Assembly (NCBI GenBank): GCA_008933805.1
Contig: WBUH01000022.1
Span: 1 to 58,074 of the forward strand
Direction of reading: 5' to 3'
Source of the DNA: Bacteroidota bacterium
GTDB taxonomy: Bacteria; Bacteroidota; Bacteroidia; UBA8524
DNA length: 58,074 bases
Positions within the stretch are counted from its first letter, which is position 1. Every line of letters begins with the position of its first letter. Below, piece after piece: positions 4,046-10,340 of this stretch. The notes beneath the pieces were generated by a model. The model had not been told where the DNA came from, searched no databases, and was given only the letters and a program-made list of their open reading frames with translations. The position numbers were made by a program, and so were the translations under genes.

Positions 4046-4678
4046 TTAGTTTTGTGTTGTGTTTGCAACGCGGATACAAGTAACCTCTACAGGAGTGCCG
4101 GCCATACAATTGCTAGCCCTGTAAACAGTTTTGTAACCAATTAATACAGGAGTACCGTCAGAAAACTTAGTTTCATCAATAGCACCCTCATTCAACTCAA
4201 GCATTTCACCGTTGTTTAGTTCAACCATCCAGCCGCAGCCGTCAAGTTTACCTGTCCAGTCATGCAAAATACCTTGCTCTTTGCAATCACCGCTGGGCTC
4301 CTCTTTAGGATTTTCGCCCAATAGTTTCATGCAAGTAATGTGGGCATTAGTATGCTCACCGGGCCAAGCCAAGCAATTCAACAAGCTGTTGCAATCAACA
4401 GTGTTGGGTTTCACAGCATAATAATCCACTTCAACCTCGCGGCCTTCATAAATAAGGCTTGCATCAATGTTAATGTCGCTTTCGCAGGGTTGCAACAAGG
4501 TTCCGTCTTCTAAGCGTATCCAGTAGCTGCCATAAAGGCCCCAACCGCATACAGCTGTTTCAAACTTTCCTTTGTATCTGCAATCGCGGTCGTTTGGAGG
4601 GTCAACCGGTGGTTTTGTACAAGCCGAAAAGGCAACAATACAAACCATCACAATTAAGTGTAAGATGTTGTTTTTCAT
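4046..4678 (-). CDS. Lipoprotein with two copies of a Cys-rich domain
   Basis: Not a family I recognise. The 210-residue protein starts best at the ATG at 4678, which gives a lipoprotein signal with lipobox FSAC (Cys20) followed by a proline-rich linker. Two copies of one domain follow. Copy 1 runs from CRYKGKFE to ITCMKLL, copy 2 from CKEQGIL to VTCIRVA. Each opens with C-x(2-3)-G, has a middle strand of the type W(I/M)xL(E/N)(D/N)G, and closes with (I/V)TC(I/M). The two lipoproteins encoded upstream (starts 5154 and 5737) carry single copies of the same domain. Probably periplasmic or outer-membrane bound; function unknown. Confidence 0.85.
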   Translation of the reverse strand: MKNNILHLIVMVCIVAFSACTKPPVDPPNDRDCRYKGKFETAVCGWGLYGSYWIRLEDGTLLQPCESDINIDASLIYEGREVEVDYYAVKPNTVDCNSLLNCLAWPGEHTNAHITCMKLLGENPKEEPSGDCKEQGILHDWTGKLDGCGWMVELNNGEMLELNEGAIDETKFSDGTPVLIGYKTVYRASNCMAGTPVEVTCIRVANTTQN

Positions 4679-4740
4679 AATTCTAGTTTGGTTAATAATA
4701 TGACACTGGTAAGATTCAATAAGCTGCATCCAGCCTATAA

Positions 4741-5154
4741 TTAATGCTGGATGGTAACAGGTGTTTGCTCAATACAAGTAATGCGAACATATTTCACCGG
4801 TTTATCGGGTACAGCAGTACAAACGATGCGCTCTCTGCATGAACATTCCTCAGCGGGTATTTCTTCATACGAAAAGTTAATAGGTTCGTTTTCGTTCATA
4901 AACTGTGGGCTGCCCGCTGTGCTTTCGCAAGGTACCAAGTACACATCCTCGTTATCTGGCACAATGCATAGGTCGTTAAAAATACTTGCAGTGCAGGTCG
5001 CATAAGCCAATCGTCCGCTTTGTTTGCAGTCGCCTTTACCGTTGCCGTTATCCGGTGGGGGAACAGGGTCTTGCTTGCACGATGAAAATACGGTCATTGT
5101 AAACATGGCGCAGATTACTGCCAGTTTTGTTGTTTGATGAATAATTGTTTTCAT
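4741..5154 (-). CDS. Lipoprotein with one Cys-rich domain
   Basis: A 137-residue lipoprotein of unknown function. The signal ends at lipobox FSSC (Cys26) and is followed by DPVPPPDNG. The single domain starts CKQSGRL and ends VRITCIEQ, the same boundaries as in the neighbouring lipoproteins, with a central PCEST motif. The EECSCRERIVC stretch adds extra cysteines. It is encoded 62 bases upstream of the two-domain lipoprotein and is separated by a terminator from the third paralogue. The last residues are PVTIQH. Confidence 0.82.
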   Translation of the reverse strand: MKTIIHQTTKLAVICAMFTMTVFSSCKQDPVPPPDNGNGKGDCKQSGRLAYATCTASIFNDLCIVPDNEDVYLVPCESTAGSPQFMNENEPINFSYEEIPAEECSCRERIVCTAVPDKPVKYVRITCIEQTPVTIQH

Positions 5155-5252
5155 GTTTTAATTTGTTATAGTTGATATTTATTTGACAGTATTTGTAATA
5201 ATAATGCTGCACGATTTATTAATTTATTTTGTTTATTTTCAATTGTTTACAA

Positions 5253-5276
5253 AATAAAAAAGCCCCTTTCGGGGCC
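5253..5276 (-). terminator. Terminator of the sigma/barrel/lipoprotein transcript
   Basis: On the minus strand, GGCCCCGAAAGGGGC is followed by TTTTTT. It lies about 35 bases downstream of the stop codon at 5312. Confidence 0.85.
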
Positions 5277-5311
5277 AAGCAGATAATCAAAAGTTTGTAT
5301 TTTTAATATTT

Positions 5312-5737
5312 TTACCTTGTACCACACCATCCGCCGGTGCCGCACCTTACTACTTGCTCAGATATACAAGTGATACGGGCTTGGGGAGGTACTACACAAC
5401 CGCCGGGCAAAATGCTGCTATTAACTTGGCAAGCACCTTCTTCGGTTGAAATTAGTTTATACGTAAGGGTTATTGGCATACCATCGTAAACATCACGTTG
5501 ATTAATGGTGTTACCTTCAACAACGCAAGGGTAGATAAGGCTGCCGTCTTCAACACGTATAAAATACTCACCGTAAAAGGTATTGAAACCTTCAGCACGT
5601 TCAAAAGTTCCTGTTAGTTCGCATTGAGTTACAGGAGGAGCGGGTGGCTCGCTTTTGCATGCAGTTACTAAAATAGCAGCCATAATTGCAATTACGGTTA
5701 TGGCTTTTTTTGGGTTTAATGCAGATAATATATTCAT
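5312..5737 (-). CDS. Lipoprotein with one Cys-rich domain, next to the sigma factor operon
   Basis: A 141-residue lipoprotein. The ATG at 5737 gives a basic N-terminus, a hydrophobic helix and lipobox VTAC (Cys27). The domain opens with CELTGTFERAEG, has the strand YFIRVEDGSLIYPC (compare YWIRLEDGTLLQPC in the two-domain paralogue) and closes with ARITCISE. The shared layout and wording show that the three lipoproteins are paralogues. It starts 57 bases after the stop of the beta-barrel protein gene on the same strand, so it is probably cotranscribed with the sigma factor. Function unknown. Confidence 0.83.
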   Translation of the reverse strand: MNILSALNPKKAITVIAIMAAILVTACKSEPPAPPVTQCELTGTFERAEGFNTFYGEYFIRVEDGSLIYPCVVEGNTINQRDVYDGMPITLTYKLISTEEGACQVNSSILPGGCVVPPQARITCISEQVVRCGTGGWCGTR

Positions 5738-5794
5738 AGTTTTATTATAGTTTGTATTAGTATGACAGTAACTGTTTTTAGTACGCTGCACCGG

Positions 5795-7234
5795 TTATAA
5801 ATTAATTTTCAATCCGGTTTCAAATCCTATAAACAAAGGCAATTCTTTTTGCACCCCGTTGCTGCTGTTGTTATTAATAGGGCGTAGTGCTGCTGTAGCA
5901 CGCGGACCTAAATAAATACCCCAGCACTTACCCGGTTTATATGTAACAAACCCGGCTACTGATGCCATAATATTCCACTTACGGTAATTGCTTGAAGGCG
6001 CTGTAGATACGTTTTCGTTTTCAGCAGAAGTAGTTAAGTTAAACTGTGCAGGTTTAATGTAGTCTTTGGTTTCTGTTTTTGCTGAGAACAAATAATCTAA
6101 CGAACCGCCGATTTCGGCATCAAAGCCCCATTTGTTTTTTTGTGCCGAATAGGTAAAGGCAACAGGTATTTTAATGCTTTGTAATGTAGTTGTATAGGCT
6201 TCGTCTACAATCTTTTCGCCTTCATACACATTTCTGTACAGGGTGTATGGTTGATTGGTTGTAGGGTCGTAGTAAATGTCTTCAACGGAGTCGTTCTCAA
6301 TAGCAGTTATTTTAGAGTAACCGGTTATGTCACGTTTACTGTACGAGATGCCCGCACTTACTCCAAAATGGCTTGTAAACTTATAGTTTGCCCTAGTTCC
6401 TACATCAAATCCGTTAGCGTACGAATAATCGTGCTCATAGCTATACCTCTGGTAGTTTGATGTGCTGATGCTGTTTGATGGGGTGGTAGTGTTGCTGCTT
6501 GTGGGCTCTGTTTTTGAAATTGTTCTGTAATAATCAGCTGCAAAGGGGTTGTAGTATGCACTTATCGCCCATTTTTCGCCGCAATTACATCCTTTACCTT
6601 TCTTTTCAGGTTTTATGGTTTGAGTTTTAGGGTCGGGCATTTCAGCAAGCTCATTAGTTTTCTCGTTCTCAACAATCTCAGTAGGAGGGATTACATCGCT
6701 TTGAGCAATCACAGTTTTGCTGCTGTCAACAACTATAACAGGTGTTTGCTTTGTATCTTCCACTACTTCAGTATAAATGGCTGAAACTTCGTCCTTCTTA
6801 TTGTTAGCAGGGGTTTCAGTTATGTCAGGCGTCTTAATAGTAGTGTTACGGGTGTTTTTAGGAGTAACCTGTTGTGAACCCGCAAAGCTCTTATCAGTTG
6901 AAGTGGTGCTGCTAGTAATAGCCTGTTGGTTGCCGGTGGTGTTTTCAGCAGTGGTAGTGCTGTTTTGTTTTTTATCAGCGGTAACGGGCTGTTGCGGAGT
7001 AGCCACTGCGGTATTATCAGTTGCGGGGGCCAATGGGGTATTGTTGCTTTGTATAGCAATAGCTAATATACCTGCCGATACAGCTGCCAGCAAGGGTAAC
7101 CAAATGATAAGGCCGCGTTTTTTGCGTTTGTTCTCCATTTTACGCATTACCGAAGCAAACGACCCCGATGAGGGGGTAATTTCAAAGCCTTCGGCCTTTT
7201 GGCGCAAAAACTCATTGAACTCTTCTTCTTTCAT
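5795..7234 (-). CDS. Inner-membrane-anchored beta-barrel protein, candidate anti-sigma factor
   Basis: A 479-residue protein with three parts. Residues 1-40 are charged and cytoplasmic-like, ending KRKKRG. One membrane helix follows (about 40-62). A Thr/Ser/Asn-rich periplasmic linker (about 65-215) then leads to a C-terminal region (about 220-479) with alternating aromatic and polar strands typical of an outer-membrane-type beta-barrel (YSYANGFDVGTRANYKF; VSAGISYSKRDI; end GFETGLKINL). The start codon overlaps the ECF sigma factor gene by 23 bases. That position and topology are what an anti-sigma factor would have, but I see no classical anti-sigma zinc motif. Assignment of the regulatory role is inference. 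Confidence 0.8.
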   Translation of the reverse strand: MKEEEFNEFLRQKAEGFEITPSSGSFASVMRKMENKRKKRGLIIWLPLLAAVSAGILAIAIQSNNTPLAPATDNTAVATPQQPVTADKKQNSTTTAENTTGNQQAITSSTTSTDKSFAGSQQVTPKNTRNTTIKTPDITETPANNKKDEVSAIYTEVVEDTKQTPVIVVDSSKTVIAQSDVIPPTEIVENEKTNELAEMPDPKTQTIKPEKKGKGCNCGEKWAISAYYNPFAADYYRTISKTEPTSSNTTTPSNSISTSNYQRYSYEHDYSYANGFDVGTRANYKFTSHFGVSAGISYSKRDITGYSKITAIENDSVEDIYYDPTTNQPYTLYRNVYEGEKIVDEAYTTTLQSIKIPVAFTYSAQKNKWGFDAEIGGSLDYLFSAKTETKDYIKPAQFNLTTSAENENVSTAPSSNYRKWNIMASVAGFVTYKPGKCWGIYLGPRATAALRPINNNSSNGVQKELPLFIGFETGLKINL

Positions 7235-7817
7235 AATGCTGTTCAGTTTTTTTTAGCGAATCAAGTTTCTTACGTAAAAATTCTTTTGCACGGGCAAATT
7301 GTGAGCGTGAGGTACTTTCTGTAATCCCCAACTGTTCAGCAATTTCTTTATGCGCATACCCCTCAATGGCAAACATATTCAGCACTACTCTATATCCTGC
7401 GGGCAGTTGCTGTATGCATCCCATCAGTATCTCGGCATCTATATCGTGAAGCTGAATTACTGATACATCCAGCGCATTTTCTGCTACTGATATATCTTCT
7501 TCCATGCGTAGCCTGCGAGTACTTTTAAGGTGATTAAGGGCGGTATTCACCATTATGCGTTTTATCCATGCTTCTAAAGAACTTTCGCGTCTAAAACTTC
7601 CTAAATTGTTAAACACTTTTACAAAACCATCCTGCATCACATCTTCTGCTTCGTGAGCAGTTTGTGTATAGCGGAAGCACACACCCAACATTTTAGGCGC
7701 GTATTTATCAAAAAGCCTGTTTTGGGCAGCTCTTTTGCCTGCCAAACAGTCTTTTATCAGTTGGTCTTCCTGCTGTGTAATCACCTTTGGTGGTTTTTGT
7801 ATTTGTGTATTTGACAT
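7212..7817 (-). CDS. ECF-type RNA polymerase sigma factor
   Basis: A 201-residue sigma-70 family factor of the extracytoplasmic function group. Region 2 spans about residues 27-95 (LFDKYAPKMLGVCFRYTQ, EDVMQDGFVKVF, LEAWIKRIMVNTALNHLK). Region 4 spans about 135-185 (LPAGYRVVLNMFAIEGYAHKEIAEQLGI, then TSRSQFARAKEFLRKKL). There is no region 1 or 3. It is the first gene of an overlapping minus-strand operon with the barrel protein and probably a lipoprotein. The family usually senses envelope conditions through its partner; the partner here is proposed to be the barrel protein. Confidence 0.95.
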   Translation of the reverse strand: MSNTQIQKPPKVITQQEDQLIKDCLAGKRAAQNRLFDKYAPKMLGVCFRYTQTAHEAEDVMQDGFVKVFNNLGSFRRESSLEAWIKRIMVNTALNHLKSTRRLRMEEDISVAENALDVSVIQLHDIDAEILMGCIQQLPAGYRVVLNMFAIEGYAHKEIAEQLGITESTSRSQFARAKEFLRKKLDSLKKTEQHYERRRVQ

Positions 7818-7862
7818 ACTGAGTTTTGGAAACGCTGCTTTAGTTTGCTATCAAATACAAAA

Positions 7863-7900
7863 AAATAAGCCCCTACCCTCACAGGGCAGGGGCTTATTTA
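7863..7900 (-). terminator. Terminator of the Omp28-like gene
   Basis: The stem AAGCCCCT(A)CCCT/AGGG(C)AGGGGCTT with a short loop is followed on the minus strand by a T-rich stretch. It lies just below the stop codon at 7914. Confidence 0.8.
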
Positions 7901-7913
7901 TTAAAAAAATATT

Positions 7914-10061
7914 TTAGTTGTTAACTACAAACTTGCTTACACCGGCAACTTGGTTATCAACTTTAATTTGTACAAGGTACAAACCGTTTTTAAGACTAGA
8001 TGCGTCAAACGATGCGAAGTGTTGACCTGAAGTGAAGCTTCCTTCTTTCACGGTTAGTACTTTTACGCCCAACATATCATATACTTCGATGCTTGCTTCA
8101 GCAGCATTGTCAAAAGTAAAGTCAACAGTTGTTAAACCTGAAGCAGGGTTAGGATAAACGTTAGTAGCTACAGAGTTTTTGCTTACGTTTTCAACGCTGT
8201 TGTAACCACCGAACAAACCAACTTCAGTTGCGTTGATTACTTGGCGTTTTACTGCGTTATCATCATAGTATGATACAAAAGCAACCAAATCAATAAAGTC
8301 TGCTTTGTTCATGCTCCTTCTGGCTGTAGTTTCGTTAGGTAGAGTAACGCTGGTTTCAGCAGGAAGAGTGTATGAGTAAGTTTGAGTATAAGTAGCGTTA
8401 GGAGCAACCAATGAAGGAACAACACCTGATGTTCCCCAAGCACCTGAAATAATGCTGCGTACTACGTGCTCGTGGCTGTATCCGATAATAGGATCAGGCT
8501 GGTTGTATAGAGCGTGACCTGCGCCACCTGCTGCTGCACCTGCACTGCTGTAATAGTTGCGTTGGTTAAAGTTGCTGTTGCTTGCACCTACTATACCGTT
8601 TTCAACCACCATAGCGTGGATACGGATATCACCTTTTACATAGTCAACTGATTTAACTTCAACAGTAAAATCAATTTTACGGGTAGCAGGGTCAAAAGTT
8701 TTTGAAGTGATTTTGATTTCAAGCGGAGCAGGTACGTTTGCTTGAGTAGCAACCCTGCTGGCCCACAAACCGCGGTTTTGTCCAACGGTAGCTTCACCGG
8801 CAAACAAAGTACGGTCAATCATACCGTAAGGATAACCGGTAGCATAAGCACTGTTTACAGTGTTACTGTTAGTGTTAGTCATACCGTCGCCGTTGTGGTG
8901 CATTACTGCAACAACTGAAGGAGTTTGGGTTTTGATATCTTTCATACGAAGGTGACCATCGGGGCAGTATCCGCACCAAGCGCCTGTTCCTTCTTCAACC
9001 AATACATTTTTAGTTCCTGAAATGCCGTTGTTTACAAACACTGAAGTTGTGATTTCATCGTTTGCGTTGTTTTCATCAGCATTGTCGTTAATCTCGCTCA
9101 CCCATACTTTAATAGAATATGTTTGACCTGCTGCAGGCAGCATAGCTTTGGTTGGGTGTGAGAAGTTATAAGTACCACCGTTTGGTGCAATGTTTAATGA
9201 AGTTATTTTTTGGCTAACAGGGGCACCGTTATCAACGCTATAGTTAAGCATTATAGAGTTAATAGCTGCGCTACCGTAGTTAGAAAGTGTACCGCTGATG
9301 GTAGCACCGGCAGAAATGCTAACAATGGCAGGAGTGCTTAATGAAACCATGGCTATGTCGCGTGTAGCTTGTGTACCCATGATAAATTCAAACACATCTG
9401 ATTTTGTAGCATCGTATGAACCGTTGTTGCCACCGAAGTTACGGTTAGGGCTTCCGCTAACGGTAGTACCCATGGAACCGTCGCCGTTTTCGCAACCTAT
9501 AGAACCTGTGAAAGTTCCAAAGCCGTAGCTGTTAACAACATCAAAGTTGCCACCTTCGTACAAACGAACAGTAGCATAAACAATGTTGCTTGCAGATGCT
9601 TGGCCAAAAGGTGATGCACCCATCCACTGAATTACGTGGATACGTTTTGGGGCAGTACCATACGTCCAGCTTTTAACAGCGATTACTGCGTTAGCGTTTG
9701 GAGTAAATGTTTTTAGTTCCAAATCATCCCAAAAAGCATAGATGGCATTGTTTGGGCCTGAAACATCGGGCAAGGTAGTGTTGGTGCCAACGCTGGTAGA
9801 AGCAGCGGCATCAAAAGTAATGTAACCATTATCGCTTACCTTGTAAGTTGTAACAGGGTTGCCATAAAAGCTCCATGCAAAAGGGATAGTTTGGTCTGCC
9901 GATAGCACATCGTTGCTAGGCTTGTTAAGCACAGTAGTTGCTCCGGTTGATGTAAAGGGGTCAAAAGCAGCTTCAACGCCTTTCTTGGCAATGTAGTAGT
10001 ACTGGGCTTGTGCTACGCCCGCTACGAACATTAATAATACAATAAGTACATTTTTTTTCAT
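7914..10061 (-). CDS. T9SS-exported Omp28/thioredoxin-like protein
   Basis: A 715-residue exported protein. The ATG at 10061 gives a signal peptide ending AQAQ; a longer reading would run through the promoter at 10097-10126. Residues of about 30-240 look like a beta-rich domain. The middle part resembles Omp28-like proteins and carries a thioredoxin-type CxxC in EEGTGAWCGYCPDG, followed by VVAVMHHNGD and YPYGMIDRTLF. The last 80 residues are a T9SS type A sorting domain (VYPNPASG... IEVYDMLG... NGLYLVQIKVDN). I infer a surface or secreted thiol-disulfide-active protein; substrate unknown. Monocistronic. Confidence 0.9.
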   Translation of the reverse strand: MKKNVLIVLLMFVAGVAQAQYYYIAKKGVEAAFDPFTSTGATTVLNKPSNDVLSADQTIPFAWSFYGNPVTTYKVSDNGYITFDAAASTSVGTNTTLPDVSGPNNAIYAFWDDLELKTFTPNANAVIAVKSWTYGTAPKRIHVIQWMGASPFGQASASNIVYATVRLYEGGNFDVVNSYGFGTFTGSIGCENGDGSMGTTVSGSPNRNFGGNNGSYDATKSDVFEFIMGTQATRDIAMVSLSTPAIVSISAGATISGTLSNYGSAAINSIMLNYSVDNGAPVSQKITSLNIAPNGGTYNFSHPTKAMLPAAGQTYSIKVWVSEINDNADENNANDEITTSVFVNNGISGTKNVLVEEGTGAWCGYCPDGHLRMKDIKTQTPSVVAVMHHNGDGMTNTNSNTVNSAYATGYPYGMIDRTLFAGEATVGQNRGLWASRVATQANVPAPLEIKITSKTFDPATRKIDFTVEVKSVDYVKGDIRIHAMVVENGIVGASNSNFNQRNYYSSAGAAAGGAGHALYNQPDPIIGYSHEHVVRSIISGAWGTSGVVPSLVAPNATYTQTYSYTLPAETSVTLPNETTARRSMNKADFIDLVAFVSYYDDNAVKRQVINATEVGLFGGYNSVENVSKNSVATNVYPNPASGLTTVDFTFDNAAEASIEVYDMLGVKVLTVKEGSFTSGQHFASFDASSLKNGLYLVQIKVDNQVAGVSKFVVNN

Positions 10062-10096
10062 AATCCGAATTGGTTCTGGTGTTAAGAATTCATTAA

Positions 10097-10126
10097 CAAA
10101 GCTATCAATAAAACCGTAATTAGCAA
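10097..10126 (-). promoter_or_regulatory. Bacteroidota-type promoter TTG-N19-TAGCTTTG
   Basis: On the minus strand TTG (10126-10124) and TAGCTTTG (10104-10097) are separated by exactly 19 bases. It lies 35 bases before the start codon of the Omp28-like gene and decides that start. Confidence 0.75.
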
Positions 10127-10340
10127 CCCGTAACAAAGAAATTTTTGTAGCAATTGTGTTGTTTTTAAATGGTTTATAATTAACTTATTTTAAGTGATTT
10201 AAGCTATGGGGTAGATAGTTTAAGGCTTGTAGGTACAGGTTTTTGGTTTGCTTTGCGTGAATGACGAAAACAAGGGTATAAACGTTTGATAGAATTGTAT
10301 AAAATGTGTGTAGAAAGTGTTTGAGTAGGGGTGCAGAAGC

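Follow-up and report, generated by a model that had tools for sequence, protein, structure and literature searches.

The locus under study occupies positions 4046-7817 on the minus strand of the window (the whole stretch of 58,074 nucleotides that was analysed), where open reading frame calls give an ECF sigma factor gene, a 479-codon gene that overlaps it by 23 bp and then three lipoprotein genes (Table 1). This anatomy of a sigma factor, an overlapping partner and three paralogous Cys-rich lipoproteins had been proposed in the original prediction and was borne out by the open reading frames, Pfam and an AlphaFold2 model. The sigma frame matches Sigma70_r2 (2.8e-17) and Sigma70_r4_2 (2.6e-15) in Pfam, and two lipoprotein starts were corrected, to ATG 5737 rather than GTG 5791 for lipoprotein 1 and to ATG 4678 rather than 4729 for lipoprotein 3. 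No terminator was found before lipoprotein 1, and one follows it at 5276-5261, so that this gene may be read through from the sigma operon in addition to being transcribed from its own predicted promoter. Sigma-70-type promoter predictions across the region were not commoner than in shuffles. Adjoining the module, at 7914-10136 of the window, an Omp28-like protein carries a T9SS sorting tail (TIGR04183), a type of tail that is abundant in this genome (at least 150 TIGR04183 matches).

Table 1. Coordinates of the genes, protein segments and regulatory elements of the module in the window
Feature	Positions	Strand	Basis
ECF sigma factor, Das/EcfO-like, 201 aa from ATG 7817	7212..7817	-	Pfam, sigma tree
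479-residue barrel partner, presumed anti-sigma factor	5795..7234	-	Pfam, AlphaFold2, fold comparison
Cytoplasmic head, residues 1-43 (helix 3-14 and first half of helix 23-64)	7106..7234	-	Model; relatives
Transmembrane helix, about residues 44-63	7046..7105	-	Hydrophobic stretch and model helix
Disordered Thr/Lys/Pro/Asn-rich linker, about residues 64-217 (~155 residues)	6584..7045	-	pLDDT, composition
8-stranded outer-membrane beta-barrel, residues 218-479	5798..6583	-	Pfam, model, superposition
Lipoprotein 1, 141 aa, one OB-like domain, lipobox LVTAC	5312..5737	-	
Lipoprotein 2, 137 aa, one OB-like domain, lipobox FSSC	4741..5154	-	
Lipoprotein 3, 210 aa, two tandem domain copies, lipobox FSAC	4046..4678	-	
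Predicted ECF promoter of the sigma-dma operon, AGCAGC-N17-TGTCA	7812..7839	-	Box also before relatives' sigma genes
Predicted ECF promoter of lipoprotein 1, TGCAGC-N17-TGTCA	5763..5790	-	
Predicted ECF promoter of lipoprotein 2, TGCAGC-N17-TGTCA	5184..5211	-	
Predicted ECF promoter of lipoprotein 3, TGCAGC-N17-TGTCA	4701..4728	-	
Intrinsic-terminator-like hairpin between lipoproteins 1 and 2	5261..5276	-	
Intrinsic-terminator-like hairpin upstream of the sigma operon	7863..7899	-	

The AlphaFold2 model of the 479-residue protein, built on a 16-sequence alignment, comprises helices at residues 3-14 and 23-64, a coil of low confidence from 63 to 216 and, between 222 and 478, eight long strands. 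The best strands reach pLDDT 90-96, while the loops are poor, the linker lies at about 27-48 and the mean is only 59. Structure prediction of this protein alone yielded the barrel, with 8 strands in the model, the single membrane helix and the disordered linker; barrel, helix and linker had been read from the letters. The barrel assignment was further strengthened by a Pfam match to OMP_b-brl_2 (PF13568) at residues 263-426 (4.2e-11) and by superposition of the barrel model on OprF, NspA and OmpA at VIA Z scores of 16-17. The barrel ends in GLKINL, which we take to resemble the BAM beta-signal. The pattern of the head is kept in relatives, and by analogy with described systems the head presumably binds the sigma factor.

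Two such systems have been described, both only recently. Dma/Das of Bacteroides thetaiotaomicron has a head, one transmembrane helix, a disordered tether and a barrel, and adjoins an ECF21 sigma factor; nigD1, a NigD lipoprotein gene, is under Dma1 control, and the Dma2 operon has a third gene, with deletion of dma2 raising its sigma factor and neighbouring genes (PMC13088901). The window protein shares the head, helix, long tether, C-terminal barrel and adjacent cognate ECF sigma factor with Dma, but its lipoproteins are Cys-rich and without a Pfam NigD domain, each is preceded by a predicted promoter, and the lineage is another one. In the EcfO-Reo system of B. fragilis and Phocaeicola vulgatus, the anti-sigma factor spans from the cytoplasm to the cell surface, the regulon includes three nigD lipoprotein genes and the sigma gene itself is induced; one P. 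vulgatus NigD gene, M0N98_03762, carries the next locus tag after the sigma factor M0N98_03761 (PMC13114119, PMC9308784). The window resembles EcfO-Reo in its periplasm-spanning, barrel-ended anti-sigma factor and in its three lipoprotein targets (predicted in the window), whereas the nigD locus tags of P. vulgatus are widely separated and the three lipoproteins of the window form one cluster and are not NigD by sequence. Because these papers describe exactly such a layout as Dma and EcfO-Reo, the kind is already known and the window is a member of it from another lineage; what appears to be new is its predicted regulon. The window is also a compact case, holding the sigma factor, anti-sigma factor, promoter boxes and three predicted target lipoproteins within 4 kb.

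As a single-sequence query, the 479-residue protein retrieved no more than three relatives from 60 genomes, all of them faint. Proteins of this type diverge fast, and relatives were therefore sought through the sigma sequence, by taking the 80 nearest sigma loci from 84,980 species genomes. The gene next to the sigma gene encodes a short head and one transmembrane helix in 79 of these 80 loci; in the exception (L136) the head is missing and the gene looks cut or frameshifted. This gene order, together with the model and the conserved head, backs the proposal of a sigma factor with a cross-envelope barrel partner. In a tree of 101 sigma factors, all Dma-type sigmas, including that of the window, fall in one group, within which the window, L115-L118 and L120 form a subgroup with a support of 100/97. 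L115-L118, from four Bacteroidota MAGs, each encode the sigma factor, the anti-sigma factor and a Cys-rich lipoprotein homologous to those of the window (IYGKNLWIKLDDGTLLQPC against LYGSYWIRLEDGTLLQPC), with one lipoprotein gene beside the sigma gene where the window has three. The taxonomy of the relatives is given loosely here, as the names of several MAG records look wrong. Six records (L127, L137, L154, L160, L161 and L193) are labelled Glaciecola, Actinomyces or Chitinophaga while their sigmas lie inside Fluviicola/Flavobacteriales groups, and these names look wrong or contaminated. The window's own genome holds five further pairs of a sigma factor and a head-helix protein with a barrel-like end (L199, L200, L201, L208 and L214); Pfam backs the barrel in four of them, one weakly, and that of L214 was assigned by a look at the sequence only.

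The three lipoproteins are paralogues with 28-29% identity over the whole proteins, and 8, 9 and 11 Cys were counted in their mature parts. An OB-like fold is modelled with fair confidence for residues 33-121 of lipoprotein 3, its domain 1, and the top fold matches of this domain are Bacteroides/Parabacteroides proteins (3k6o at Z 8.2, 3k0y at 7.3 and the NigD-like 4j8q at 7.1 in VIA), where Z scores of 7-8 are not far above the level reached by unrelated folds. No NigD family match was obtained for the three lipoproteins in Pfam or NCBIfam. Given these moderate scores and the lack of a matching family model, we suggest a NigD-like fold for these proteins and do not claim NigD membership. They share an OB-like N-terminal domain within a lipoprotein with the NigD-like lipoproteins (PF22221 NigD_N-like; PDB 4j8q, 4pqx, 3nqi), from which they differ in lacking a Pfam hit and, for lipoproteins 1 and 2, in being single-domain and Cys-rich. 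The parallel is made stronger by Parabacteroides relatives (L164, L173 and L190), which carry true NigD_N-like lipoproteins directly after their Dma-like anti-sigma genes. A weak profile match of the lipoproteins (window 4046-5737) to monalysin (E 0.0017) was taken as probable chance. The four lipoprotein domains as queries found nothing convincing in 118 relatives, and a lipoprotein profile with L115-L118 added brought in another six genomes (E 3e-18 or better), among them G239, evidently the genome behind L115.

The link between the sigma factor and the lipoproteins comes from a shared promoter signature. The box TGCAGC-N17-TGTCA stands 21-28 nt ahead of each lipoprotein ATG (3/3) with identical spacing, and none of 2000 dinucleotide shuffles of the three upstream stretches had a 6+5 dyad of this kind in common. 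The exact box occurs five times in the 4.29-Mb genome, the two copies outside the cluster both lying within coding frames. The box of the sigma gene begins with A and reaches into the first ATG of the sigma frame; because codon 1 (ATG 7817) overlaps the gene's own predicted -10 box, GTG 7784, which gives 190 aa, is the likelier start if the predicted promoter is used. The shared signature strongly suggests that the sigma factor switches on its own gene together with the three adjacent lipoproteins, which had been named as possible outputs and are backed in this role by the common box. Duplication could partly account for the shared promoters of the three paralogues, although their spacers have diverged while boxes and spacing were retained. 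Scanning found no such box before the remaining Dma-type sigmas of this genome. Another ECF sigma factor of this genome (L196, G000:C3:162213-168716) has AGCAGC-N18-GTCA upstream and a lipoprotein-like gene downstream, and cross-talk between it and the window module is possible.

This signature recurs among the relatives. In L115-L118 the box precedes both the sigma and the lipoprotein genes, it was also seen before the sigma genes of L238 and L239, and it is present at L242 as well as at L239. One genome holds L236, L237 and L238: the first two are lipoprotein paralogues with the box and no sigma gene within the ~10-kb stretch examined, and the third lipoprotein lies beside a sigma gene and has the box with one mismatch. 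The remote lipoprotein homologues L240 and L241 are without the box. Most related sigma genes are preceded by a TGCAAC version, and a wider form, GCA[AG]C-N18-GTC[TA], lies within 260 nt upstream of the sigma gene in 64 of the 80 loci, against a chance expectation of about 0.3 (our own estimate with equal base frequencies); L193 and L194 have it just beyond this limit. A related pattern occurs in 27 of the 80 loci against a shuffle mean of 0.33. Elsewhere in 1.16 Mb the wide form has 17 copies, including the four L115-L118 lipoprotein promoters and the two L193/L194 sigma sites. Among the 80 loci, it is absent from those of Bacteroidales (Parabacteroides among them), Cyclobacteriaceae and some others. 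We met no description of the promoters of Dma and Reo in the open-access literature on them, and the promoter code offers a testable means to find regulons in other Bacteroidota.

Considering these observations together, we think it highly probable that the locus encodes an envelope-stress module of the Dma/Das (EcfO-Reo) kind that regulates its own expression and has the OB-fold lipoproteins as its output. At rest, the head would keep the sigma factor at the inner membrane, as the binding in described relatives implies, while the linker crosses the periplasm and the barrel sits in the outer membrane according to the predicted architecture. The trigger would be a disturbance of the barrel, whether through faults in outer-membrane assembly, through membrane-active agents or by a ligand at the surface; for EcfO-Reo, the published evidence favours outer-membrane stress (PMC13114119, PMC9308784). 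The disturbed barrel would lose its grip on the sigma factor, probably via proteolysis or a pull through the linker, and the freed sigma factor would then read TGCAGC-N17-TGTC[AT] at its own operon and at each lipoprotein gene, a step strongly supported by the promoter sequences. The Cys-rich OB-fold lipoproteins would act in the envelope as the protective output, in the role that NigD has in EcfO-Reo and Dma1.

Other roles for the lipoproteins and for the linker have to be weighed against this module. The lipoproteins may instead be feedback ligands that bind the barrel or linker and end the signal, as might be expected from the close linkage and common promoter that they show both in the window and in the L115-L118 clade. 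Box-bearing paralogues without a sigma gene nearby also exist, however (L236, L237), and the lipoproteins beside the sigma gene differ in number, with three in the window against one in L115-L118, which leaves this reading unlikely. About equally unlikely, and compatible with the output role, is that they are potempin-like OB-fold inhibitors of proteases or other attackers, induced by envelope damage. The Tannerella forsythia potempins A and D, which consist of a single OB domain as lipoproteins 1 and 2 seem to do, superpose on domain 1 of lipoprotein 3 at Z 6.5-7.0; however, OB folds are common, no potempin was among the sequence matches of the lipoproteins and no paired secreted protease directly adjoins the cluster.

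The original prediction also held that the barrel could sense a gap or load between the two membranes. The linker would then serve as a ruler, such that changed membrane spacing pulls the inner-membrane helix and frees the sigma factor, with the lipoproteins repairing spacing or tethering. Linker length is indeed fairly constant, at 127-165 residues across 16 barrel-type proteins with only about 14-17% identity to the window protein, and most CHU_C-type linkers are similar (about 118-161 residues by a rough count). This constancy fits a plain periplasm-spanning tether, and distance as the signal does not follow from it: no length-critical or force-sensing element was seen, about 155 disordered residues leave slack across the few tens of nm of the periplasm, a CHU_C domain can replace the outer domain, and the described relatives answer antibacterial toxins and oxygen (PMC13114119, PMC9308784). 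Gap or load sensing is accordingly disfavoured and seems quite improbable. That the lipoproteins are mere neighbours, tandem paralogues whose shared box is a duplication relic unrelated to the window sigma factor, is very improbable, given that sigma genes throughout the sigma family, and lipoprotein homologues in other genomes, have the box upstream and that only the spacers diverged.

The relatives of the presumed envelope-stress module include a second class of outer domain. A scan of 66 proteins encoded at the anti-sigma position gave 50 with a match to CHU_C (a T9SS signal) and 12 with a match to OMP_b-brl_2, and a local profile puts 65 of the proteins examined in the CHU_C class. These proteins, which make up most of L119-L194, have the head, helix and linker of the window protein, with a type IX secretion (type B) domain in place of the barrel. 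The best sigma tree implies at least four switches between the barrel and CHU_C labels, though its well-supported branches alone force only one. We tentatively propose, as a reading that may well not hold, that cross-envelope anti-sigma factors are one family with exchangeable outer sensors (barrel or CHU_C) and mostly one promoter code, GCA[AG]C-N18-GTC[TA]. If this is true, the sigma factor of the CHU_C class would signal the state of type IX secretion or of a secreted anchor, and CHU_C-ended relatives, if they are real anti-sigma factors, would tie gene control directly to type IX secretion. No description of the CHU_C-ended variant was met in the open-access literature, absence from which is weak evidence. 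One CHU_C-class protein, with two PKD hits and a CHU_C match at 3.1e-13, is encoded in the window's own genome (L197:1273-2589, G000 contig C1).
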